Positions 829-11,149 of a stretch of DNA of 11,149 nucleotides are shown in pieces (positions within the stretch are counted from its first letter, which is position 1; each line of letters starts with the position of its first letter). Where the stretch lies: positions 1-11,149 of the forward strand of contig JACNFQ010000064.1 of assembly GCA_014384545.1 (NCBI GenBank), written 5' to 3'. The notes beneath the pieces were generated by a model that saw nothing but the letters and a program-made list of their open reading frames with translations, ran no database searches and was not told the DNA's origin. Origin of the DNA: a bacterium (GTDB lineage Bacteria > UBP7 > UBA6624). The translations under genes and the position numbers were made by a program.

Positions 829-2151
829 CTATTCGCCGGGGGCGGTGCTGGTGGTGCGGAACCCATCCACCACCAAGGGGGGCACCCACATTCTTACACC
901 CCAATGGGAGACGAGTTGGGGCTTTCCTGCAGCGACAATGGTTCCGAGGATACGGAGCGGAGAGTCGTTGAACCTGAGGTTTTGGAGACGAGCCCCCAAC
1001 GCTCCACCTTTGACTTGTCGCAATCCATCTCGGGTAAGACCGGTCAGCCCCATCGTCATCGGTTCTACTGTGCGAATATACCAAAACCGGGGAATGAACA
1101 TCCCCTCTTCTACCTTGTTGAGCAGCTCCTCGTCTGAAGAACCTTCTCCCTGTACGGTTAGTCCCAAGTTCCATGACGAGCCCGTGCTTTGGCGTTCTGT
1201 TTGGGTTGCCCAATACCGATCGCAGGGCAGAGACTTTAGGTACCCGTCCTCCACCCACACCCTCTTTTGGAGAGGATGTCCCTCTTCATCAAAAGGTGCA
1301 GTGCGAAGGGCAGAGTGGCTAGGATCTGTCCAAAGAGAAACCCCTTTGCTCAATAATCTACCATCTTCTCTCAATGGGAAACCATTCTCCGAGAAAGGAC
1401 TCCTCCCTTCATCCGTTCCGCGAGCCTCACCCATAGCCAAGCACCAAACCACAAGAGAGCCAACCGCTCCTGCCGAAAGGAGAACGCGATGTTCTCCTGG
1501 TTCCTGAGGGGTGGAAGAGCCGGGCGCAATCTGTTGCTCCAATGAATGGAGGAGTTTTTTGGGGTTGAGTTGGAAGAGATTCCAAGTGCTTTCTGAAGAG
1601 ACCCTATAACTCCCTCCCGAGGGATCTGTGAGTGTCCCACTGACCCCCCCACGGCTTCCCCGATGAAACAGATTCGCACCTTGACTGGTAACAAGTGTGG
1701 TTGCCTCCCAACCCGAGGAGACCGTCCCCGCCAAGGTGCGTCCTGCCTTACCCGCGGCTTGTGCTGAAGGGGCAATGATAGCGACCCTCTCTTGGGCTGT
1801 CATATGGGCAGTTGCCTCATCCCAAGCCTCTCCCTCCACCACACCCACGCCGTCCATAGGGGGTAATGTTTCAGGATTCTCGGGAGCTAAGCGTGCAGCG
1901 TCTTCAGCCCTAAGAATCGTTGCCTTGATTCCTCCAGTGGATAAATCCGTGGTGGATGCCGCGCCCACTTTTTGACCATCCCACGCGGTGGCAACGAGCG
2001 TTCTGTCATGACGACTTGTATGTTGGGTAACGCCATTGTTCGCCACGCGAGTTAGGTCTAGACGCTCCTCGTCAAGAGAGAGGGAGAGGTGCTCCAAAGA
2101 CCTATCTTTGAGTGCCTCAGAAAGTGATGAACGGAGATCTGTGGGCTCCAT
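829..2151 (-). CDS. tldE: TldE/PmbA-family protein, partner of TldD
   Basis: Non-catalytic partner of the TldD-TldE metalloprotease, which in Escherichia coli cleaves small peptides, matures microcin B17 and degrades the CcdA antitoxin. The protein has 440 residues, close to the 450 of E. coli PmbA. It lacks an HExxxH zinc site, as expected for the E subunit. The C-terminal part carries the family pattern: FIPRFWYIRTVEP, then TGLTRDGL, then a VKGGALGARLQNLRFNDS stretch corresponding to the usual 'TRDG.F.IE.GEI...N.RF..S' order. An ATG 39 codons further upstream exists but would run into tldD. The ATG at 2151 shares one base with the tldD stop (TGATG), which signals translational coupling and equal expression of the two subunits, and a GGGGG run about 10 bases upstream may act as a weak ribosome site. 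Followed after 8 bases by the methyltransferase. Confidence 0.93.
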   Translation of the reverse strand: MEPTDLRSSLSEALKDRSLEHLSLSLDEERLDLTRVANNGVTQHTSRHDRTLVATAWDGQKVGAASTTDLSTGGIKATILRAEDAARLAPENPETLPPMDGVGVVEGEAWDEATAHMTAQERVAIIAPSAQAAGKAGRTLAGTVSSGWEATTLVTSQGANLFHRGSRGGVSGTLTDPSGGSYRVSSESTWNLFQLNPKKLLHSLEQQIAPGSSTPQEPGEHRVLLSAGAVGSLVVWCLAMGEARGTDEGRSPFSENGFPLREDGRLLSKGVSLWTDPSHSALRTAPFDEEGHPLQKRVWVEDGYLKSLPCDRYWATQTERQSTGSSWNLGLTVQGEGSSDEELLNKVEEGMFIPRFWYIRTVEPMTMGLTGLTRDGLRQVKGGALGARLQNLRFNDSPLRILGTIVAAGKPQLVSHWGVRMWVPPLVVDGFRTTSTAPGE

Positions 2152-3626
2152 CAGTTTGCATCCCCCACTTGGATGCCCCGAAAAACCGACCACGAGGCGC
2201 CATGGGTCTGCTGTCCCTGTTGGCTGGGTTGCCCTTTGCCACAGTTTCGCACACCGTGAGGAAGCCAATCATCCTCGCCAGCCACCCCATCACACGCATT
2301 CCAAAACTGCGTCGTAATACTACGGTAGGTGACATCACTGTACATCCCCCGGACTTTCCCATCCCGAATCTCCCAAAAGGCATCCCCACCAAACTGGAAG
2401 TTGAACCGTTGCTGATCGATACTGAACGAGCCCCTCCCCTGAATCAACACCCCCCTCTTGACCGATGCAACAAGGTCGTCCTTAGTAGGGGCTTGGGGTC
2501 CTGGTGTGGGCTTTAGCCACACATTGGGAATGCGGAGAATGGGAGTATTTGCCCAACTATCAGCATGTCCACAGGCACGCCCCGCACCCTCCTCCCCTTG
2601 GAGATAGGCGGAATCCCTCGTGCTGGAAAACCCTCTAAAAACCCCCTCCTCAATAATCTTGAACTCTGTAACAGGGACACCATCATCGTCCCATCCCAGC
2701 GTTGATTGACCGTGGGGGAGTGTGCGGTCGCCCTGGACATTGACCCACTTTGAGCCATACTGGAGCGTATCTATATCAGATGTTTTTAGGAATGATGTCC
2801 CCGCAAAATCCGCCTCCCATCCACACGCTCTATCCAGTTCGGTGGCGTGACCGATACTCTCATGAATCGTAAGGGCAAGGTGGGCAGGATCCAAGACCAA
2901 GTCCAATTTGCCAGAAGGACCCTGAGGAGCATTCGCTCTCTCCACCGCTTCTCTACCGACTCGGGCACCGTTGCCCGGAAGGTCTGCCTGGCGAATGTGC
3001 TCGTATCCAATCGTAAGGGGAGGAACTTGATACCCTCGGGTGCGTACTTTCCCATCACGCCCTTTTCCCCACGCCATCAAGTCGGGAGAGAGACGCACGA
3101 CTTTTTGGGTGATGTCGCACCCTTGAGTGGAGAAAAACCGTCTGTTCTCTTCGCCGCAGAAGGTCTCGGCGGTCGCCCTAAAACACCCTTCTTGACTGAG
3201 GCAAGCCTCTGTGGTAGCTAAGAGCATCTCGATGCGTTCTTGAATAGGAACGGTAAAGGGGTCTTCCTTGACGGGGGTTTCAAAACGCCCCACTTGGGGG
3301 GGGAGATCGGGCCAAGAGACGGGTTCGGGTCGGAGGGACGCTGAAGCTTTGGCAACCTCTATCGCCCGGAGGAGCGTAGCGTTGAGAACATCTGGGGAGA
3401 GGTCGGGCGTGCTGGCAAATCCCCATCCCCCATCCACTAAAACCCTGATGCCCACACCTTCACTTGCGTCATCCTCAATGCTCTCTACTAAGTGGTCACG
3501 GACCGACACCGTTTGCGACCGGTATTTTCCGTAGCGAATATCCCCATATTGGGCACCCTTCACCAACGCATCATCGAGAAGCGACCGTAAGACTTCGTCA
3601 ATGGAGAGGGAGAATACTTCAGGCAT
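2151..3626 (-). CDS. tldD: TldD-family metalloprotease
   Basis: Catalytic subunit of the cytoplasmic TldD-TldE peptidase, 491 residues (E. coli TldD has 481). The zinc site is visible: HESIGH at residues 255-260 is the HExxxH motif, with His255 and His260 as ligands and Glu256 as the general base. Cys462 in NCGKGQP near the C terminus occupies the place of the third zinc ligand. The N-terminal part (1-110) has the alternating strand-helix pattern of the PmbA/TldD N domain, including GVGIRVLVDGGWGFAST. The ATG at 3626 fits the family N terminus, but the leader before it is pyrimidine-rich (TCCTCCCTCT), so there is no proper Shine-Dalgarno site; the nearest, AAGGTG, is 15 bases away. It lies 52 bases after the regulator gene with no terminator between, and its stop overlaps the tldE start by one base. 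No peptide precursor can be assigned as its substrate in this window. Confidence 0.95.
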   Translation of the reverse strand: MPEVFSLSIDEVLRSLLDDALVKGAQYGDIRYGKYRSQTVSVRDHLVESIEDDASEGVGIRVLVDGGWGFASTPDLSPDVLNATLLRAIEVAKASASLRPEPVSWPDLPPQVGRFETPVKEDPFTVPIQERIEMLLATTEACLSQEGCFRATAETFCGEENRRFFSTQGCDITQKVVRLSPDLMAWGKGRDGKVRTRGYQVPPLTIGYEHIRQADLPGNGARVGREAVERANAPQGPSGKLDLVLDPAHLALTIHESIGHATELDRACGWEADFAGTSFLKTSDIDTLQYGSKWVNVQGDRTLPHGQSTLGWDDDGVPVTEFKIIEEGVFRGFSSTRDSAYLQGEEGAGRACGHADSWANTPILRIPNVWLKPTPGPQAPTKDDLVASVKRGVLIQGRGSFSIDQQRFNFQFGGDAFWEIRDGKVRGMYSDVTYRSITTQFWNACDGVAGEDDWLPHGVRNCGKGQPSQQGQQTHGASWSVFRGIQVGDAN

Positions 3627-3678: not shown

Positions 3679-4515
3679 CTAGAAGCCAGCAGGGGGGTGA
3701 TGGTCCCGAGGTGGGGGGCCATGAGGCATATCTCTGCCGTGCATTCTCATATCTGTTCGCATCCGTTCCCAATGTTCTCTCCAAGCAGCGCGTTGTTTGG
3801 GGGTTAATCCTTCAATGAACGCTCGGCGTTGTTCAGGAGATAGGCGCCTAAAGGTGCCGAGGAGATCGGACACTTGACCCTTAACATGATCAATCTCACC
3901 TCTTTGAGGTCTTTCACTTCGTGGGGCTTGTGTGGTAAGAAGAGGGGGAGTAGATGGACCTTGCTCTCCCCACAAACCATGCCCCATCCAGAAACCCAAA
4001 GCGAGGGTGGCTATGGGTAATCCCCAAGCCCATGAAGGTCGTTTAGGTCTTCGCATGACTTTCGTGGGCAAAGGGATTTCCTTACCATCGGTAACAACGA
4101 TGCGGTGTTGACGCTTTCGCGCCGCTTGATCATAAGAAACGAAAGTCCAATTGCCAGATAATACGAGCTTTCTCTCTTCGTCTAGCGCACGAATTCGATA
4201 CCCCTGCCCGCGCACCTTCTCAACCCACCATAGACACTGCGTCTTCTTTTGCTTATATAAAGCCCGAAGGGATCTAACCAAGTTCTGACGCGTGGACTCC
4301 ACCGCTTCGGGGATATAGCCACAACCAGGGTTTTCGGTTGAATACCCTGTTGCTTCCCATGCCTCTTCGAATACCAAGATACCTTCTCTATCCAAAACGA
4401 AGGCATCAAGCAAGGCTCGGAACATCCCTGCCTGGTAGTTAGAACCTCCTGTAGGGAATCGACTCAAGAGGACCTCTATTTCCTTTCGCATCAACTGGGG
4501 AATCACTTGTTTCAT
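3679..4515 (-). CDS. membrane-anchored winged-helix transcriptional regulator (ToxR-like layout)
   Basis: Predicted one-component regulator of 278 residues. Residues about 30-110 fit the OmpR/PhoB C-terminal winged helix: FRALLDAF opening helix, LVFEEAWEATG, recognition-helix region ESTRQNLVRSLRALYK (73-88), and the closing wing hairpin VEKVRGQGYRI (98-108), which is highly typical. A basic stop-transfer stretch (RRPKRP, 155-160) precedes one membrane helix (about 162-182, WAWGLPIATLALGFWMGHGL), putting the DNA-binding domain inside and the tail outside. The tail has LSPEQRRAFIEGLTPKQRAAW (225-245), reminiscent of LTxxQ segments of Spy/CpxP or DUF3106 proteins, then a Met/His/Pro-rich end (residues 252-278, with 4 Met and 4 His). 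The start is supported by an AGGAGG site at 4526-4531, 10 bases away. It leads the tld operon and diverges from the Met/His-rich secreted protein. The ligand is unknown; metal or envelope stress is my inference. Confidence 0.82.
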   Translation of the reverse strand: MKQVIPQLMRKEIEVLLSRFPTGGSNYQAGMFRALLDAFVLDREGILVFEEAWEATGYSTENPGCGYIPEAVESTRQNLVRSLRALYKQKKTQCLWWVEKVRGQGYRIRALDEERKLVLSGNWTFVSYDQAARKRQHRIVVTDGKEIPLPTKVMRRPKRPSWAWGLPIATLALGFWMGHGLWGEQGPSTPPLLTTQAPRSERPQRGEIDHVKGQVSDLLGTFRRLSPEQRRAFIEGLTPKQRAAWREHWERMRTDMRMHGRDMPHGPPPRDHHPPAGF

Positions 4516-4517
4516 AT

Positions 4518-4573
4518 TTGAGCAACCTCCTTTGCCGTAGTTATACTATAACCGATGGGGGTTGGTTTCTAAT
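4518..4573. promoter_or_regulatory. candidate bidirectional promoter and palindrome between regulator and secreted-protein genes
   Basis: GTTATACTATAAC at 4540-4552 is a perfect inverted repeat (6-base arms, 1-base centre). On the plus strand it contains TATACT (4542-4547), 18 bases after TTGAGC (4518-4523, 4 of 6 with consensus). On the minus strand it contains TATAGT (4550-4545), with only a weak ATTAGA at -35 (4573-4568). The minus transcript would start near 4538 with a 23-base leader holding AGGAGG; the plus transcript near 4554 with a leader of about 124 bases. The same palindrome could also be an operator for the regulator. Base patterns are seen; promoter function is inferred. Confidence 0.45.
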
Positions 4574-4677
4574 TTGGACTAACTATGAATTACCAATTTA
4601 CCCACCCTTACCATGTAGAAAAACTGTATTGAAGGTGGTAGAGTGTGCCTACAAACAGACCGATAGGAGGTTTTGGT

Positions 4678-5910
4678 ATGAACAGATTGAGATTGGGAAC
4701 GATTTGGATTCTCCCTTTCCTACTAACCGTTGCGTTGGGTGCAGGACCTGGGGACGAAACGAAGAACAAAGGGAACCGCGGTGGCGGTTTACCTTGGGAG
4801 GCACTGGAGGGACTAAGCCAAGACGAAATAGCCGAACTGAGGGCTTGGCTTGCCAAAGCACCTGCTTTTGTCAAAGAGCGAATCCGGGGGCGTCGAGACA
4901 ACCAGAATCGTGGCATTGTCCGTGCACAAGGAGATAGAGATGATAGCGCGAGTACCGAGGATCGTATGCGTCAAGCGATGGATAAGATTCACGCCGCAGT
5001 TGAGGCTGGTGATATAACTCCGGAAGAAGCTCGAGAAAAAATAGCAGGGCTAAGGCGTCGCATTGGGGATCAAGGGGGTGGCGACCATCAAGGAATGGGA
5101 GGCCAAGACATGATGGGTATGGGAAACCACCGTCAAGGTGGCGGAAATCACGACCAGATGGGACAAGGACGAAGAGGTCGTGGTCAAGGTCGTAACAACC
5201 ACCAAGGGATGAGGCAAGGACACCAAGGTGGAAGGGGGCAAGGTCAGATGGGTCAAGGACACCAACGGGGTGGTCAAGGCTGGTCCCAAGGGATGGGTCA
5301 AGGTCACAGAGGTGGTAGGGGAGAAGGTCGTAACAACCACCAAGGGATGAGGCAAGGACACCAAGGTGGAAGGGGACAAGGTCAGATGGGTCAAGGACAC
5401 CAACGGGGCGGTCAAGGCTGGTCCCAAGGGATGGGACAAGGACGAAGAGGTCGTGGTCAAGGTCGTAACAACCACCAAGGGATGAGGCAAGGACACCAAA
5501 GGATGGGTAGCAACGAGGGAGGGCCGCGTTCGATCGAGAGGGAGTTTTCCTTTCCTGGAGGCGAAGGTCGTCTCCGCATGGAAATCCATAGTATGGACGG
5601 TATGCCCATGATGGGGGGAGAGATGCCTTGGGGCGATGGACCTCCCCCATGGATGAACCCAGAAATGATGGGTGGCATGGGCATGATGGGGGTAGAGATG
5701 CACATCATGATGGAAAGGCATCACGGTGGTGCATCCGAGTGTGTCTATTCGGGCACATCAGGTGCCAAATGGGATGCCAGCAAAGGGTGTTGGGCTAAGG
5801 ACATGGAGCACGCCATGGTTCACCATGTTCAAGGTGAACATGACGGAGAACACCAAGGTGGACGGCACAATCGACGGAACGGTGGTCGGCAACACCGTCA
5901 AAACCACTAG
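4678..5910 (+). CDS. secreted Gly/Gln/His/Met-rich repeat protein, putative metal-binding
   Basis: Function not recognised; 410 residues. A signal peptide (hydrophobic 6-21, cleavage probably near residue 21-23) sends it across the inner membrane. Two short helical segments follow: LSQDEIAELRAWLAK (46-60) and an acidic-basic helix around 93-127. Residues 161-275 are about two and a half copies of a 45-46-residue Gly/Gln/Arg/His repeat. Residues 301-345 contain 15 Met plus several His, in MxxMxxM-like spacing. A short domain with Cys355 and Cys371 precedes a His/Arg/Gln-rich end. ATG at 4678 is chosen because AGGAGG at 4665-4670 stands 7 bases before it and the signal peptide starts there; a GTG 11 codons upstream lacks these. 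Met- and His-rich extracytoplasmic segments are known in copper/silver/nickel proteins, so metal binding is a reasonable inference, but RNA-binding-like or matrix roles for the RGG-type repeats cannot be excluded. Divergent from the membrane regulator, whose tail has similar composition; ended by a strong terminator. Confidence 0.8.
   Translation: MNRLRLGTIWILPFLLTVALGAGPGDETKNKGNRGGGLPWEALEGLSQDEIAELRAWLAKAPAFVKERIRGRRDNQNRGIVRAQGDRDDSASTEDRMRQAMDKIHAAVEAGDITPEEAREKIAGLRRRIGDQGGGDHQGMGGQDMMGMGNHRQGGGNHDQMGQGRRGRGQGRNNHQGMRQGHQGGRGQGQMGQGHQRGGQGWSQGMGQGHRGGRGEGRNNHQGMRQGHQGGRGQGQMGQGHQRGGQGWSQGMGQGRRGRGQGRNNHQGMRQGHQRMGSNEGGPRSIEREFSFPGGEGRLRMEIHSMDGMPMMGGEMPWGDGPPPWMNPEMMGGMGMMGVEMHIMMERHHGGASECVYSGTSGAKWDASKGCWAKDMEHAMVHHVQGEHDGEHQGGRHNRRNGGRQHRQNH
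5158..5499 (+). repeat. coding tandem repeat, 135/138 bp units
   Basis: Unit 1 is 5158-5292 (45 codons), unit 2 is 5293-5430 (46 codons) and unit 3 is a partial 5431-5499. Unit 3 is base-for-base identical to the first 69 bases of unit 1, including synonymous positions. The last 105 bases of units 1 and 2 differ at only two sites. Each unit opens with Met-Gly-Gln-Gly and carries an RNNHQGMRQGHQ core. Silent-site identity indicates recent duplication or gene conversion. The alternation (units 1 and 3 alike at the start, units 1 and 2 alike at the end) suggests unequal exchange. Confidence 0.95.
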
Positions 5911-6004: not shown

Positions 6005-6076
6005 TCCGCGGTAGCTCAGCGGTAGAGCGGGTGGCTGTTAACCACTAGGTCGTGGGTTCAAATCCCGCCCGCGGAG
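6005..6076 (+). tRNA. tRNA-Asn, anticodon GTT
   Basis: The full cloverleaf folds. Acceptor TCCGCGG (6005-6011) pairs with CCGCGGA (6069-6075), discriminator G is 6076, and the D arm is GCTC/GAGC with an AGCGGTA loop. The anticodon stem GGTGG/CCACT has one G-U pair, and its loop CTGTTAA carries GTT at 6037-6039, which reads AAC/AAU (Asn). The variable loop is AGGTC and the T arm is GTGGG-TTCAAAT-CCCGC. No CCA is encoded (CGCC follows), so CCA must be added by nucleotidyltransferase. A 15-bp direct repeat begins inside its last four bases. Confidence 0.97.
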
Positions 6077-6271
6077 CGCCGACATCCCCGCCGTGCGAAG
6101 CACGGTCACCCCAAAACGAGACACCGTGGGGCGCATAGCGAACCAAAGGTGGATTGGATTGGGGTATTGCGATCTGCATAGCAGATTGCGGGGATATCCA
6201 TCTCATGCGGGAGTGGAGCGCCGACATCCGCGCCGGCGTCGGTCCCTCAGGGGAAAAGGACGCCTACATCC
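6073..6271. repeat. 15-bp direct repeat from the tRNA 3' end, with a degenerate third copy
   Basis: GGAGCGCCGACATCC occurs at 6073-6087, overlapping the last bases of the tRNA, and again at 6215-6229. A looser copy, GGACGCCTACATCC, is at 6258-6271. The stretch between the tRNA and the lipoprotein gene (6077-6319) has no convincing gene. The repeats could mark a short dispersed intergenic element or a scar at a tRNA insertion site, since tRNA 3' ends are common attachment sites. No integrase is in view. Confidence 0.6.
6091..6189. other. two perfect short hairpins in the intergenic patch behind the tRNA
   Basis: Hairpin 1: CCGTGC (6091-6096), loop GAA, GCACGG (6100-6105). Hairpin 2: GCGATCTGC (6169-6177), loop ATA, GCAGATTGC (6181-6189), nine pairs with one G-U. 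Neither is followed by a T tract, so they are not intrinsic terminators. They lie between the two copies of the 15-bp repeat and may belong to a REP-like element or a processed tRNA trailer. No function is assigned. Confidence 0.5.
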
Positions 6272-6319: not shown

Positions 6320-7270
6320 CTACTCAATCCCCAAGGTCTCCTTCGCTCTGGGGCCGTCAATCAGGCGTTCGGGGAGATGCCCCCACATCCACACTGGCTC
6401 GCCGTCAACGAGACAACCTGGATACAACCTCTCCGAACCAAACATTGGGTGTATGTGCCAAGCATGGTCTTCTAAGGGGAGAGGGGGCACCTCCAGCATA
6501 GCCTCGGCGTCCCACAGCCACCAGTAGCCCTTGAGTTCCTCCAATGTGAGCGGCGGCGTGGAGTTGCCTCCCACCAACCCGGGGGAGTACGGGTCGATTT
6601 GGGGGGTCGTGAAATAGACAACCGAAACGAGCGCTCGGCAATAGGCGAGGATCGCATCAAGGTTGGCAGGCTTGGGTCCGTCTGGGTAGGGCGTGGATAC
6701 GTCTGCTCCTGGGGCTGACCAACTCGTGGCTTCCGGCTCGATCTCCCCGCGGAACAGAACGACCGTTGTGGAGGTAACTGCGACAAAATGCCTCTCCTCT
6801 TTCTCCACCCAAGTCCAATACGTGCCCGGTTGAGCGTCATCAGGGGGAGGACCCTCTTCTAGGACGCCGGCGGTCTCCGAGAAAGGATCCCAGAGATTCA
6901 CAGCCGCGAATTCCGGTGTGGCGACAAAGGCGGAAAGGGTCTTTGGCGACGGGGCATGCGACGAGGTGGCATGGAAGGCTCCCGCCAGCCTAGTGAAGTT
7001 TCCCGCCACCCTCCGATCCAGAGGGTTGTCCACATCGAACCCGTCCTGGAGATAAGCCAGATGTGGCCAAAAGGGGAGCATCCCCACATTGACCTCCCCA
7101 GAGGTCTCGGTCGCGAACTGGGCGGCGGCCACCCCCTGTGCGATTGCGGCTGCAGACGCTTCACCCCCATCCCGCACGCATCCCACTGCAGACAGGACCC
7201 ATCCCCCGGCAAACAGGAAGAGAGCCGCGTTCTTCCTACTACGAATCAGTTGAGACAACAATCTGTGCAT
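6320..7270 (-). CDS. putative lipoprotein of unknown function
   Basis: Not recognised; 316 residues from the chosen start. Basic residues (LIRSRK) precede a hydrophobic stretch ending AVGC, with Cys31 as likely lipidated residue, so it is predicted to be membrane-tethered outside the cytoplasm. The mature part has no repeats or further membrane helices and is rich in Pro, Trp and acidic residues (TYWTWVEKEERHFVAVTS, then GYWWLWDAEAMLEVPP), with a late pair of Cys (in AYCRAL and YPGCLVD). An ATG at 7279 abuts the GGAGG site (7281-7285) too closely, so I prefer ATG at 7270, 10 bases from it. It overlaps the end of the Cys-rich gene by 25 bases, so the two are probably translated together. The name rests on the signal only. 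Confidence 0.78.
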   Translation of the reverse strand: MHRLLSQLIRSRKNAALFLFAGGWVLSAVGCVRDGGEASAAAIAQGVAAAQFATETSGEVNVGMLPFWPHLAYLQDGFDVDNPLDRRVAGNFTRLAGAFHATSSHAPSPKTLSAFVATPEFAAVNLWDPFSETAGVLEEGPPPDDAQPGTYWTWVEKEERHFVAVTSTTVVLFRGEIEPEATSWSAPGADVSTPYPDGPKPANLDAILAYCRALVSVVYFTTPQIDPYSPGLVGGNSTPPLTLEELKGYWWLWDAEAMLEVPPLPLEDHAWHIHPMFGSERLYPGCLVDGEPVWMWGHLPERLIDGPRAKETLGIE

Positions 7271-7782
7271 AACTTGCATCCCTCCACTTCGTCACCCCAC
7301 GCATCACTGCTCTCCGGCACACACTGCGCCAATTGCCCAGGTCCACAATTACAGTCTGAACAGTCAGGACACTCAATGATCTGAATAAACTCTTGAAACC
7401 CAGCCCCCGTGCTTCCGTCAGAACGCCACTTGCAGATTGTGCCGCATCTTGAGGTGGACACGGCACATGACCGTTGGTAAATGACTCGTCTCTGCAGTCG
7501 TTTGCACGGCGTGAATGGGTTATTGCAACATTCAATCGCTGGGAACGGATTGTCAATGTAGTAGGGCGTCCTTGCCTGGTACTCACAGGGCTCAATCCCC
7601 GAGCAGAACCAGCAAAGATCCTCCTCGCCTAGAACGGTTGACCCCACAACGATCGTCCCAGAGGGACAGCCTCCGGGTGCACCACCAACGGGCTCTAAGG
7701 GCGCAGGAGGCCCGCCCATGCCCCCGCCTCCCCCTATGGCTGACATAACCCAAGAGGGGATCGACCGATGCAGCCAGCACAT
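7246..7782 (-). CDS. cysteine-rich protein, body portion of a probably frameshifted gene
   Basis: Not recognised. From about 7735 down to the stop at 7246 the frame encodes a Gly/Pro-rich linker and a domain with 19 Cys in roughly 145 residues: LCWFC, ECC, SRCGTIC, IECPDCSDCNCG and a closing GCKLCTDCC. Paired Cys spacing suggests disulfides if exported, or metal clusters if cytoplasmic. The open frame starts at ATG 7782, but its first dozen codons have no export signal and look like the out-of-frame shadow of the signal-bearing frame (7592-7912). Removing one G from the GGGGG run at minus-strand 7734-7730 would join the two into one secreted protein of about 220 residues. The lipoprotein gene starts inside its last 25 bases. 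Whether the cell makes it through an internal start, frameshifting or not at all is unknown. Confidence 0.65.
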   Translation of the reverse strand: MCWLHRSIPSWVMSAIGGGGGMGGPPAPLEPVGGAPGGCPSGTIVVGSTVLGEEDLCWFCSGIEPCEYQARTPYYIDNPFPAIECCNNPFTPCKRLQRRVIYQRSCAVSTSRCGTICKWRSDGSTGAGFQEFIQIIECPDCSDCNCGPGQLAQCVPESSDAWGDEVEGCKLCTDCCLN

Positions 7783-7971: not shown

Positions 7972-8001
7972 CGGACAAGTGGGAGTCGGCATGGATATAC
8001 T
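7972..8001 (+). promoter_or_regulatory. candidate promoter of the dnaE-like gene
   Basis: CGGACA (7972-7977, 4 of 6) and TATACT (7996-8001, 5 of 6) are spaced 18 bases apart. Transcription would start near 8008, about 17 bases before the ATG at 8025. The leader has no Shine-Dalgarno sequence. The divergent promoter at 7922-7930 lies back-to-back, so the two genes share a 112-bp control region. No LexA-like or other clear operator was found. Confidence 0.45.
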
Positions 8002-8005
8002 CCCC

Positions 8006-8026
8006 TTGTTCCTATTTTGTTCCTAT
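8006..8026 (+). repeat. 10-bp direct repeat at the dnaE start
   Basis: TTGTTCCTAT occurs at 8006-8015 and again at 8017-8026, an 11-base period, the second copy running into the ATG. It replaces the place where a ribosome site would be. One helical turn of spacing would suit a regulator bound in tandem, or it is a chance duplication. Confidence 0.6.
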
Positions 8027-11024
8027 GCCTAAACCCGTCCTCTTACGCACCCACAGCCACCACTCGCTGGGGCAGGGTGTCCCCTCCTCCACCACCCTTC
8101 TAGATCGCTGTGCTGCTATGGGCATTGGTGCAGTGGCACTAACCGACACCGACACGATGGCGGGGGTTATTGACTTTGTGGCACGGGCACGTGCCCGTGC
8201 TATCCAGCCTCTTCCCGCCACAACACTCCAAACGCATGCTGGCGATCTCATCCTCCTCCCCCGAAATACCAAAGGGTGGGGGGGACTCTGCCGACTCCTT
8301 ACGCAACGGCGGATGGGACGCGCGCCCACACCCATAGATGCGCTGGAACAGATGGAGGGGGAGGGGTTTGTTCTGGCTACGACACCCAAATCCCTCCTTG
8401 CTCTCCCCGACCGACACCCTGATGTGGTGGCAGGGATTCCCTTCCCCTTGGGTGAGGGGCGGGAAGCAGCGCGGCGGATGCGGAGCTGTGCCTCTAGCCG
8501 AGGAATCGTTATCGCCGCTGCACCATTGGTTCTTTTTTTGGATACCGAGGACCACCTCCTCCACCGACTTCTTTCGGCGATTCACCATCTTTACGACTTA
8601 GAGAACACCCCCGCTCGCTTGGTGGCATCCCCCACCAACTCTCTCCCTGTGCCCGCACTTTACGAACGAATCTATCCCAAAACGGAAAGAGGGGTAGCCT
8701 ATGAGATTGCCCTTGCGTGCCGATGGGGATTCCCCCATGGGCGCGCCCCACGCCTCCCGACGACAGGGCGGTCCCACCCCCACCGCGACCTTCGCCGCCG
8801 CTGCCTCCAGGGGTTGCGCAGCCGGGGACTGTCAAGAAAGCGCCCCTACACCACACGCCTCGCCCGCGAGTTGCGTGTGGTGCGCATGCTGGGATTCTCC
8901 GACTATTTTCTCTTTGTGGCGGGGATAGTGGATGACGCCCGCGCCGATGGTCTCCCTGTGATTGGGCGAGGCTCGGCGGCAGACAGTCTCGTCTCCTGGC
9001 TTTTGGGCATCACAAGGGTGGACCCTGTCCATCACAACCTCCTCTTCGAGCGCTTCTTGAATATGGGGCGGGCCGACCCCCCCGATTTCGATCTGGACTT
9101 CCCCAGCGATGCCCGCGTGGGGGTGATTCGGCGCGCCATCCGGCGCTTTGGCACCGAACGGTGCGCTGTGATCTCCACCCATGTCCGCTTCCGTGCCCGC
9201 GCCGCCTTCGCCGAGGTCGCCAAAGCGCTGGGCGTTCCTGAGGCAGAGGCACGCAAGGTGAGCAAGCGCCTCCCCGCCCGCATGGATGGCGATGCTAAGA
9301 ATGCCCTCCACCGCATCGCGGGGGGGCGGGAGATCCTCCGGCTGATGGAGTCGTTCCCTGGGGTGTGGGACGCCGCCCGCCGCCTTGTGGGGAAGCCCCG
9401 CCATCTCGGGAGCCATCCGGGGGGGCTCGTCATCTCCCCCGACCCCATCACCGACCTCGTTGCCGTCCAGCGCTCGGCGATGGGGCCCCGCATCACCCAA
9501 CCAGAAATGGTCCAGATCGAGAAGGGCCTCGGCCTCCTCAAGGCGGATCTCCTGGGCAACCGCAGCCTCGGCGTCCTCCGCGACGCCTGCCACTGGCTGG
9601 ATCTCCCTTGGGAGGGGTTGATGGCGACCGCCCATACCCAACCCACCCCCGGGATGCGTCGGCGTCTTTCCGAGGGGCGCACGCTGGGGGTCTTCTATGT
9701 GGAGAGCCCTGCAATGCGCTCGCTCCTCCGCCAATTGGGTCCCACCGACTTTGAAGGGCTCGTCGCCGCCTCTTCCGTCATCCGCCCCGGCGTCAGTTCC
9801 TCGGGGATGAAGGACGCCTACATCCGCCGACGACGAGGGTTGGAGCCCCCTGAATACCCCCACCCCCTCCTCCAAGACCTCCTCTCGGAGACGTTGGGCG
9901 TGATGGTCTATCAGGAGGATGTTCTCCGCGTGGCCCGTCATCTGGGCGGTTTGGATTGGGCCGAGGCGGATGCCCTCCGCAAGATCTCCAGCACCAAGCG
10001 GGGGCGGCGGGCGGCGGTGGGAAGGGCGGAGATGGCGTTCCTGAAGGGCGCTGTCCAGCGTGGATGCGCCCCCGCCCTCGCCCAGGACCTCTGGCGGCAG
10101 ATCGCCTCCTTCGCCGGGTATGCCTTCTGCAAGGCACACTCGGCGTCCTATGCCCAAGAGAGCATGGCATGCCTTTGGCTAGCCGAGCACCAACCCGTGG
10201 TGTTCTGGGCGGCGGTGCTAGCCAATGGCGGGGGATACTACGGCGAATCGGCGTACATGGAGGAGGCGCGACGGCGGGGCATCCGCATCCTCCCCTGCGA
10301 CCTCAACCTCCCCGGCATCCTTTGGCAGCCAGAGAGCACCCGTCCCCAAGGCGCGTTGGACGCCATCCGTCCCGGCCTCTCCGGCATCAAGTCTCTCCGG
10401 GCGCAGACCCGCCGGGCCATCATGGAGCGCCGCCCCTTTGCCGGCGTGCGGGATTTCCTCGCTCGCACCCCGGCCAATCTCGGGGAGACGTTGAACCTAG
10501 TGGCGGCGGGGGCGTTTGATTTTACGGGGGGGGAGCGGGCGTCCCTCTCTTGGCTTGCCCTCCTTGAAAGTTCCCGTGGGCGGGGCGGGGGCAATCTTGT
10601 CGGCGCCGTCCCCGACCCCCCCCACCCTCCCCGCCCCCCTTGGTCCACCCACCAGCGCATCGCCCGCGAGCGAGCCGTCTTGGGCTGCTCTCCCACAGCC
10701 CCCCCGATCACCCTCGTCCACCCCCCGCCCGATACCATCCCCATCGCCGACCTCCCCTCTCACACCGGCAGGGATGTGGCGGTGGCGGGCCATTTCGTCT
10801 TGGCGCGGGGGCACCGCACCGCCAAGGGGGATGCCATGCGGTTCCTGACGGTGGAGGACGAGACGGGGATGTTGGAGTGTGTCGTCTGGCCTAGGGCATG
10901 GCGCCTTCTCCACCCCGTCCTGCGCCGGGGGTACTTCTGGCAACTTTGGGGGCGTGTCCAGACCCGCTACGACGCCCTCACGCTAGAGGTAAGGGACGCC
11001 CGCCCCCTTACCTTCAAGACATAA
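8025..11024 (+). CDS. dnaE2: DNA polymerase III alpha subunit, C family, probably DnaE2/ImuC-type
   Basis: Template-directed DNA synthesis; DnaE2/ImuC enzymes act in error-prone lesion bypass rather than bulk replication. The protein has 999 residues, short against about 1,160 for E. coli DnaE. Order: PHP domain from residue 5 (RTHSHHS, then LTDTD); polymerase core with GRGSAADSLVSWLLG (from 314); catalytic PDFDLDF with Asp354/356/358; HLGSHPGG; third catalytic Asp508 in LLKADLLG; RPGVSSSGMKDAYIRRR (587-603); VYQEDVL; GYAFCKAHSASYA (698-710); a helix-hairpin-helix region; and a final OB-fold from about 915. It ends with the OB-fold, so the tau-binding tail of replicative alpha is absent, and I see no QxxLF-like clamp motif. 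PHP metal ligands are partly lost (Arg8, Thr in LTDTD). These points favour DnaE2/ImuC, but imuA and imuB are not in the window, so a divergent replicative DnaE remains possible. ATG 8025 lacks a Shine-Dalgarno site. The second half is visibly more C-rich than the left-hand genes. Confidence 0.93.
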   Translation: MPKPVLLRTHSHHSLGQGVPSSTTLLDRCAAMGIGAVALTDTDTMAGVIDFVARARARAIQPLPATTLQTHAGDLILLPRNTKGWGGLCRLLTQRRMGRAPTPIDALEQMEGEGFVLATTPKSLLALPDRHPDVVAGIPFPLGEGREAARRMRSCASSRGIVIAAAPLVLFLDTEDHLLHRLLSAIHHLYDLENTPARLVASPTNSLPVPALYERIYPKTERGVAYEIALACRWGFPHGRAPRLPTTGRSHPHRDLRRRCLQGLRSRGLSRKRPYTTRLARELRVVRMLGFSDYFLFVAGIVDDARADGLPVIGRGSAADSLVSWLLGITRVDPVHHNLLFERFLNMGRADPPDFDLDFPSDARVGVIRRAIRRFGTERCAVISTHVRFRARAAFAEVAKALGVPEAEARKVSKRLPARMDGDAKNALHRIAGGREILRLMESFPGVWDAARRLVGKPRHLGSHPGGLVISPDPITDLVAVQRSAMGPRITQPEMVQIEKGLGLLKADLLGNRSLGVLRDACHWLDLPWEGLMATAHTQPTPGMRRRLSEGRTLGVFYVESPAMRSLLRQLGPTDFEGLVAASSVIRPGVSSSGMKDAYIRRRRGLEPPEYPHPLLQDLLSETLGVMVYQEDVLRVARHLGGLDWAEADALRKISSTKRGRRAAVGRAEMAFLKGAVQRGCAPALAQDLWRQIASFAGYAFCKAHSASYAQESMACLWLAEHQPVVFWAAVLANGGGYYGESAYMEEARRRGIRILPCDLNLPGILWQPESTRPQGALDAIRPGLSGIKSLRAQTRRAIMERRPFAGVRDFLARTPANLGETLNLVAAGAFDFTGGERASLSWLALLESSRGRGGGNLVGAVPDPPHPPRPPWSTHQRIARERAVLGCSPTAPPITLVHPPPDTIPIADLPSHTGRDVAVAGHFVLARGHRTAKGDAMRFLTVEDETGMLECVVWPRAWRLLHPVLRRGYFWQLWGRVQTRYDALTLEVRDARPLTFKT

Positions 11025-11149
11025 GAGCATAGAGAAGCCCCCCCACCCTGCCGGAAGGCATCTCTAAATCGGGCTGGCAACCGGGGGGAGTCTTCATAGC
11101 CAACCATCAGGAAAAACACCCAACAGATGCATGTGAGACAGCGCCCTTC
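11025..11149. other. 3' flank of the polymerase gene, no gene seen
   Basis: The last 125 bases carry no start with a ribosome site and no tRNA. A long imperfect hairpin is possible: GAAG and CCCCCC (about 11034-11045) against GGGGGG and CTTC (about 11083-11096), enclosing a small TGCC-GGAA-GGCA hairpin. No T tract follows, so I do not call it a terminator. Confidence 0.4.

Follow-up and report, generated by a model that had tools for sequence, protein, structure and literature searches.

Divergent genes for a candidate membrane-anchored winged-helix regulator and a secreted methionine-rich repeat protein in an uncultured bacterium

Two genes that diverge from one short intergenic region in an uncultured bacterium raise the question of whether a regulator spanning the membrane controls the production of a secreted, methionine-rich neighbour, and whether metals or some other envelope stress would be the signal. 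The window, that is the whole stretch of DNA analysed (11,149 nucleotides), is an entire contig (C95) from a barely sampled lineage. The genome to which it belongs (G000) is 1.39 Mb in size and 79% complete. Only two of the other genomes shown are from the same family, G001, of a sister genus and 86% complete, and G002, 62% complete; all remaining ones are related at the domain level only. The features discussed below are as follows.

829 to 2151, minus strand: tldE/pmbA, starting at about 2151 with an ATG that overlaps the tldD stop codon (Pfam)
2151 to 3626, minus strand: tldD, 3' of the regulator gene on the same strand after a 52-bp gap (Pfam)
3679 to 4515, minus strand: regulator gene, 278 aa (ORF list, Shine-Dalgarno site, codon use, paralogue)
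3682 to 3753, minus strand: Met/His/Pro-rich tip of the regulator, DMRMHGRDMPHGPPPRDHHPPAGF (composition)
3727 to 3903, minus strand: putative helical LTXXQ/Metal_resist-like exported tail, residues 205–263 (sub-threshold Pfam, shuffle control, low-confidence model)
3973 to 4029, minus strand: candidate membrane helix, residues 163–181, after RRPKRP (hydropathy)
4064 to 4254, minus strand: segment common to the regulator (residues ~88–150) and its paralogue L047, the wing and the part following it (alignment)
4192 to 4497, minus strand: winged-helix-like putative DNA-binding domain, residues 7–108, with the wing VEKVRGQGYRI at 98–108 (hmmsearch, hhalign)
4516 to 4677, no strand: region separating the two divergent start codons, 162 bp, with both Shine-Dalgarno sites inside (ORF list, inspection)
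4678 to 5910, plus strand: gene of the secreted Met-rich repeat protein, 410 aa (ORF list, Shine-Dalgarno site, signal peptide, composition)
4678 to 4743, plus strand: signal peptide, residues 1–22, MNRLRLGTIWILPFLLTVALGA (hydropathy, inspection by eye)
4789 to 5067, plus strand: probably helical N-terminal domain, residues 38–130 (inspection; no coherent Pfam match)
5157 to 5499, plus strand: repeats with a 138-bp period, rich in Gly, Gln and Arg and also containing Met and His (repeat search, composition)
5578 to 5712, plus strand: Met cluster, 15 Met in residues 301–345 (composition)
5740 to 5790, plus strand: segment from Cys355 to Cys371, CVYSGTSGAKWDASKGC (composition)
L049:10632 to 12098 (also L047), minus strand, contig C88 of the same genome: paralogue of the regulator, cut short at the contig end, whose large exported domain has no family match (386-genome search)

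The two divergent genes are real. A first-pass annotation had read the regulator and the secreted protein as divergent ORFs, and the layout is as it described, with 162 bp between the start codons and strong Shine-Dalgarno sites at both genes (AAAGGAGGT and TAGGAGGT, at 4525–4533 on the minus strand and 4664–4671 on the plus strand). These ribosome sites and the divergent spacing are the reasons for accepting both genes. Two antisense ORFs (4871–5650 and 5050–5724, both minus strand) are taken as by-products of the repeats and were dismissed, since the plus-strand gene has a Shine-Dalgarno site and a signal peptide; codon scores were undecisive. Divergent genes over one common region are a frequent arrangement for local control, and the layout makes it plausible that the regulator controls the secreted gene. 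An operator search of 4516–4677 found short, chance-like repeats only and identified no operator, and promoter predictions in the intergenic region were not clearly better than those for shuffled sequence. The window holds no metal transporter or any other metal gene.

The minus-strand product had been described as a membrane-anchored regulator of the ToxR type. In Pfam it has no Trans_reg_C (PF00486) match, and it is also absent from the Trans_reg_C matches of its own genome. For both proteins of the pair, no family in Pfam or NCBIfam exceeds its cut-off, and no PHROG or PDB-sequence match is significant. A profile of 31 Trans_reg_C domains nevertheless gives regulator residues 1–120 a score of 7.2 bits (hmmsearch), rank 4 of 5001 when 5000 shuffles are included; three of the shuffles outscore it, and the wing signal is modest. 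Alignment to the same profile with hhalign covers residues 6–108 (P 4.6e-4), and the signal comes from the wing VEKVRGQGYRI and the last part of the recognition helix. The resemblance of the N-terminal domain to an OmpR/PhoB-type winged helix, mainly at the wing, is thus supported but not proved. The candidate membrane helix is weakly hydrophobic (mean 1.1), and the stretch at residues 31–49 scores equally high. Foldseek returned no meaningful fold match with single-sequence models of the two proteins, which are poor (pLDDT 46 and 52).

A search of 386 genomes with the regulator found a further match in its own genome, a 488-codon ORF on contig C88 that is open at the contig end. The two proteins align with a BLASTP E of 1e-6 and a score of 79, the best of 5000 shuffles reaching 54. 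In the paralogue, the shared segment is followed by a membrane helix and then by a long exported part that differs from that of the regulator and has no family match; our impression from the sequence is that it may be a beta-propeller. The reverse search in the three family genomes returned only the paralogue itself and the window regulator (E 3.9e-4). A paralogue with the same wing and another exported part places the regulator in a small family of which two members are known, each with its own kind of exported part. Wing signal, topology and paralogue together support the assignment as a membrane-anchored one-component regulator; the earlier description is partly supported, and the paralogue strengthens it.

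The tail that follows the candidate membrane helix had been called rich in Met and His; this is true of the final 24 residues, which hold 3 Met, 4 His and 6 Pro, but not of the rest. When residues 184–278 alone were compared with 24,736 Pfam models, the best two were Metal_resist (E 0.028) and LTXXQ (E 0.056), both below their cut-offs (14.6 bits against 24.3 for PF07813; 15.0 against 29.2 for PF13801). None of ten shuffled tails matched either family and one matched any family at all; with so few shuffles, in which helix periodicity is lost, the resemblance stays short of proof. Helices are present at the tail in the low-confidence single-sequence model. The evidence suggests a helical segment like that of CpxP, Spy or ZraP. 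Kinship between helical segments of the regulator and of the secreted protein, in both of which LSxxx-type segments had been noted earlier, was rejected, as 432 of 2000 shuffles equalled the best local alignment.

The secreted protein has the hydrophobic N-terminus, the 15 Met in residues 301–345 and the two Cys (355 and 371) that had been reported for it. In six other ORFs of the window (tldD, tldE, the polymerase, the regulator and two small ORFs at 6.3–7.8 kb) the maximum is 4 Met per 45-residue stretch. Its repeats had been called His-rich; they are real (138-bp period, 2.5 copies, 89%), but His makes up only 7.6% of them, and they consist mainly of Gly (36%), Gln (20%) and Arg (14.5%), with 8.3% Met. 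Two repeat copies have few codon differences except in a short stretch at the start, and by inspection the pattern is A-B-A'-B-A, from which the array looks recently duplicated. Neither PF07813 nor PF13801 was found in the secreted protein, whether it was searched entire (E<=1) or by its non-repeat segments (E<=10).

Relatives of the pair are scarce. For the regulator, a pattern scan of genome contigs and searches of plasmids, viral contigs and the 386 genomes gave the own-genome paralogue as the only convincing relative; for the secreted protein, plasmids, phages and viral contigs, and the 386 genomes for its C-terminal part, gave none that is reliable. Of the other, weak matches, the ones inspected (L043 and L045 for the regulator, L073–L075 for the secreted protein) showed nothing resembling the query. 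The pattern scans demand near-identical 8-residue stretches and therefore detect close relatives only. The homologues detected are thus one paralogue for the regulator and none for the secreted protein. Neither protein has a match in G001 or G002, and given the completeness of these genomes (86% and 62%) the absence of the pair from them is likely, not certain. In G001 the order tldD-tldE is kept, with a TldD match of 67%, and a different secreted-looking gene without a Pfam match lies upstream. The pair had been described with tldDE attached, and its conservation had been put forward as a check. It was not found in the sister genus, where tldDE occurs without it, and neither its conservation nor its link to tldDE is supported by this one comparison. 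As it stands, the candidate pair is an orphan in one incomplete genome and chiefly marks a candidate worth testing.

What the pair does we infer, in regulation, ligand and function alike, from the features above. The best explanation, which we advance tentatively, is ToxR-like one-component control of an envelope protein like ZraP/Spy or MrpX. The regulator would have its DNA-binding domain inside, one membrane helix, and outside a helical tail that resembles LTXXQ proteins and ends in the His/Met/Pro tip. Excess soft metal, or damaged or misfolded protein, would be felt by the tail as a change in the envelope; the regulator would then bind the 162-bp region differently and switch on the secreted gene. 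Once exported to the periplasm or surface, the product would bind the stressor or buffer it with the Met and His residues of its repeats and with the Met cluster, much in the manner of ZraP with zinc. On this view the two genes may form a small response to envelope stress or to metal. A ligand common to the two proteins, as first suggested, is not supported. Metal sensing by the regulator is a guess from composition and from the sub-threshold similarity of the tail to LTXXQ/Metal_resist; of the envelope metal sensing first suggested, the composition and the shuffle-controlled resemblance speak in favour, but no match exceeds a cut-off.

Three kinds of known system come closest. The regulator resembles ToxR/CadC-type factors in its predicted layout of a putative cytoplasmic winged-helix-like domain, one candidate membrane helix and a putative C-terminal exported sensor, and has a paralogue with another exported domain; it differs from them in having no Trans_reg_C match over the cut-off and a short tail made of two LTXXQ-like helices that ends in a His/Met/Pro tip, and no ToxS-like partner was identified. 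ZraS detects periplasmic Zn(II) and raises the level of ZraP, a periplasmic Zn-binding chaperone (PMC8264917). ZraSR-ZraP and CpxAR-CpxP likewise combine a membrane sensor, here a putative one, with a protein that is exported, and they too have stretches rich in Met and His and helices of the LTXXQ kind, but here the LTXXQ-like part would lie in the regulator itself, without a histidine kinase, whereas LTXXQ was not matched by the secreted protein, which carries long Gly/Gln/Arg repeats. MrpX and BcrX have been proposed as Met-rich sacrificial periplasmic peptides that are re-reduced by MsrPQ (PMC8315932). The likeness to them is an exported, very Met-rich protein in an organism with MsrP and a probable MsrQ; in contrast, the secreted gene here lies outside the msrPQ operon, encodes a 410-residue repeat protein, and has no ECF sigma/anti-sigma pair in the window.

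The same precedent of BcrX/MrpX (PMC8315932) offers another function for the secreted protein, that of a sacrificial Met store which reactive chlorine or oxygen species would oxidise and MsrPQ would reduce again, in which case the Met-bearing regulator tail could sense oxidation. The Met cluster fits such a sink, and the reading gains weight because the genome encodes MsrP (435.7 bits, cut-off 207) beside a probable MsrQ (123.4, just under the cut-off of 130) at L067. However, these genes lie on contig C38 and the secreted gene on C95, unlinked; the sister genomes have Oxidored_molyb genes of ~305 codons, the length of MsrP, yet no Met-rich protein; and the abundance of Gly, Arg, Gln and His is nothing a sink would need. 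On balance we consider an oxidant sink unlikely. The LTXXQ chaperone Spy has Met residues whose oxidation needs repair under chlorite stress (PMC12503329), so that metal handling and a Met sink need not exclude each other. The repeats, for their part, with their Gly/Gln/Arg composition and recent duplication, would suit a disordered, structural or sticky protein of the surface or matrix that is expressed according to envelope state and binds metal incidentally, and the absence of metal genes nearby agrees with this; a separate cluster of 15 Met in 45 residues is left unexplained, and we give this reading too a low probability.

Two further alternatives concern the regulator. It might control its own downstream operon, tldD-tldE, with the secreted gene an unrelated neighbour, since it shares a strand with tldD across a 52-bp gap and the gene order is conserved; but tldDE is conserved in the sister genus without such a regulator, and a divergent layout over a shared region such as the 162 bp here is common for local control, which leaves control of tldDE distinctly improbable. 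The regulator might also not bind DNA at all, its N-terminal domain having another fold and the wing motif being a coincidence. The missing Pfam and PDB matches, the three shuffles in 5000 that beat the wing signal and the fold search without a match (from a poor model) are compatible with this, but the wing motif and the adjoining segment recur in the paralogue at the same position before the membrane helix, and we think this very improbable.

ToxR-like control of the secreted protein could take a bolder form, to which we assign little probability: a new one-component envelope sensor in which the LTXXQ (CpxP/ZraP-like) sensing element is part of the DNA-binding protein itself and reaches through the membrane. 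This one protein would stand in for the kinase, the regulator and the accessory protein of Zra/Cpx-type systems, and it would switch on a Met-rich repeat protein, specific to the lineage, for dealing with soft metals or oxidants. If true, the CpxP/ZraP-type watch over the envelope would here be reduced to a single protein, and the regulator would be an example of new transmembrane switches arising by swaps of exported domains onto a common winged-helix base.

Other observations were made in the window and the genomes. Downstream of the secreted gene lies a tRNA-Asn (gtt) at 6005–6077, and slightly beyond it the GC content changes. Two overlapping minus-strand ORFs follow (6320–7279 and 7246–7782), neither with a Pfam or NCBIfam match, the second Cys-rich. 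At 8000–11149 the GC content rises to 66%, against 52–53% in three other stretches of the genome, and this part encodes a 999-aa DnaE-like polymerase whose best match in the sister genomes, in G001, is not close (33%). The genome has a second DnaE-like gene on contig C87, at 37%, and a short stretch (L071, G000:C61:12377–12463) that resembles the final 29 residues of the window polymerase at 69% identity. The high-GC end was possibly acquired, or the contig possibly joined. The msrP and probable msrQ genes, a periplasmic methionine sulfoxide repair system, occupy L067:1201–2755 on contig C38. In G001 (contig C2, L014:2444–3412), an ORF reads as a PhoU-like protein fused to an OmpR-type winged helix that exceeds the Trans_reg_C cut-off, and pstS-, pstC- and pstA-like genes follow the fusion ORF (PhoU and Pst identities by eye). 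A nearly identical winged-helix domain occurs in G002 in an ORF of similar length, and in G000 a stand-alone PhoU-like ORF (L012, PhoU by eye) has a response regulator and a histidine kinase as neighbours.
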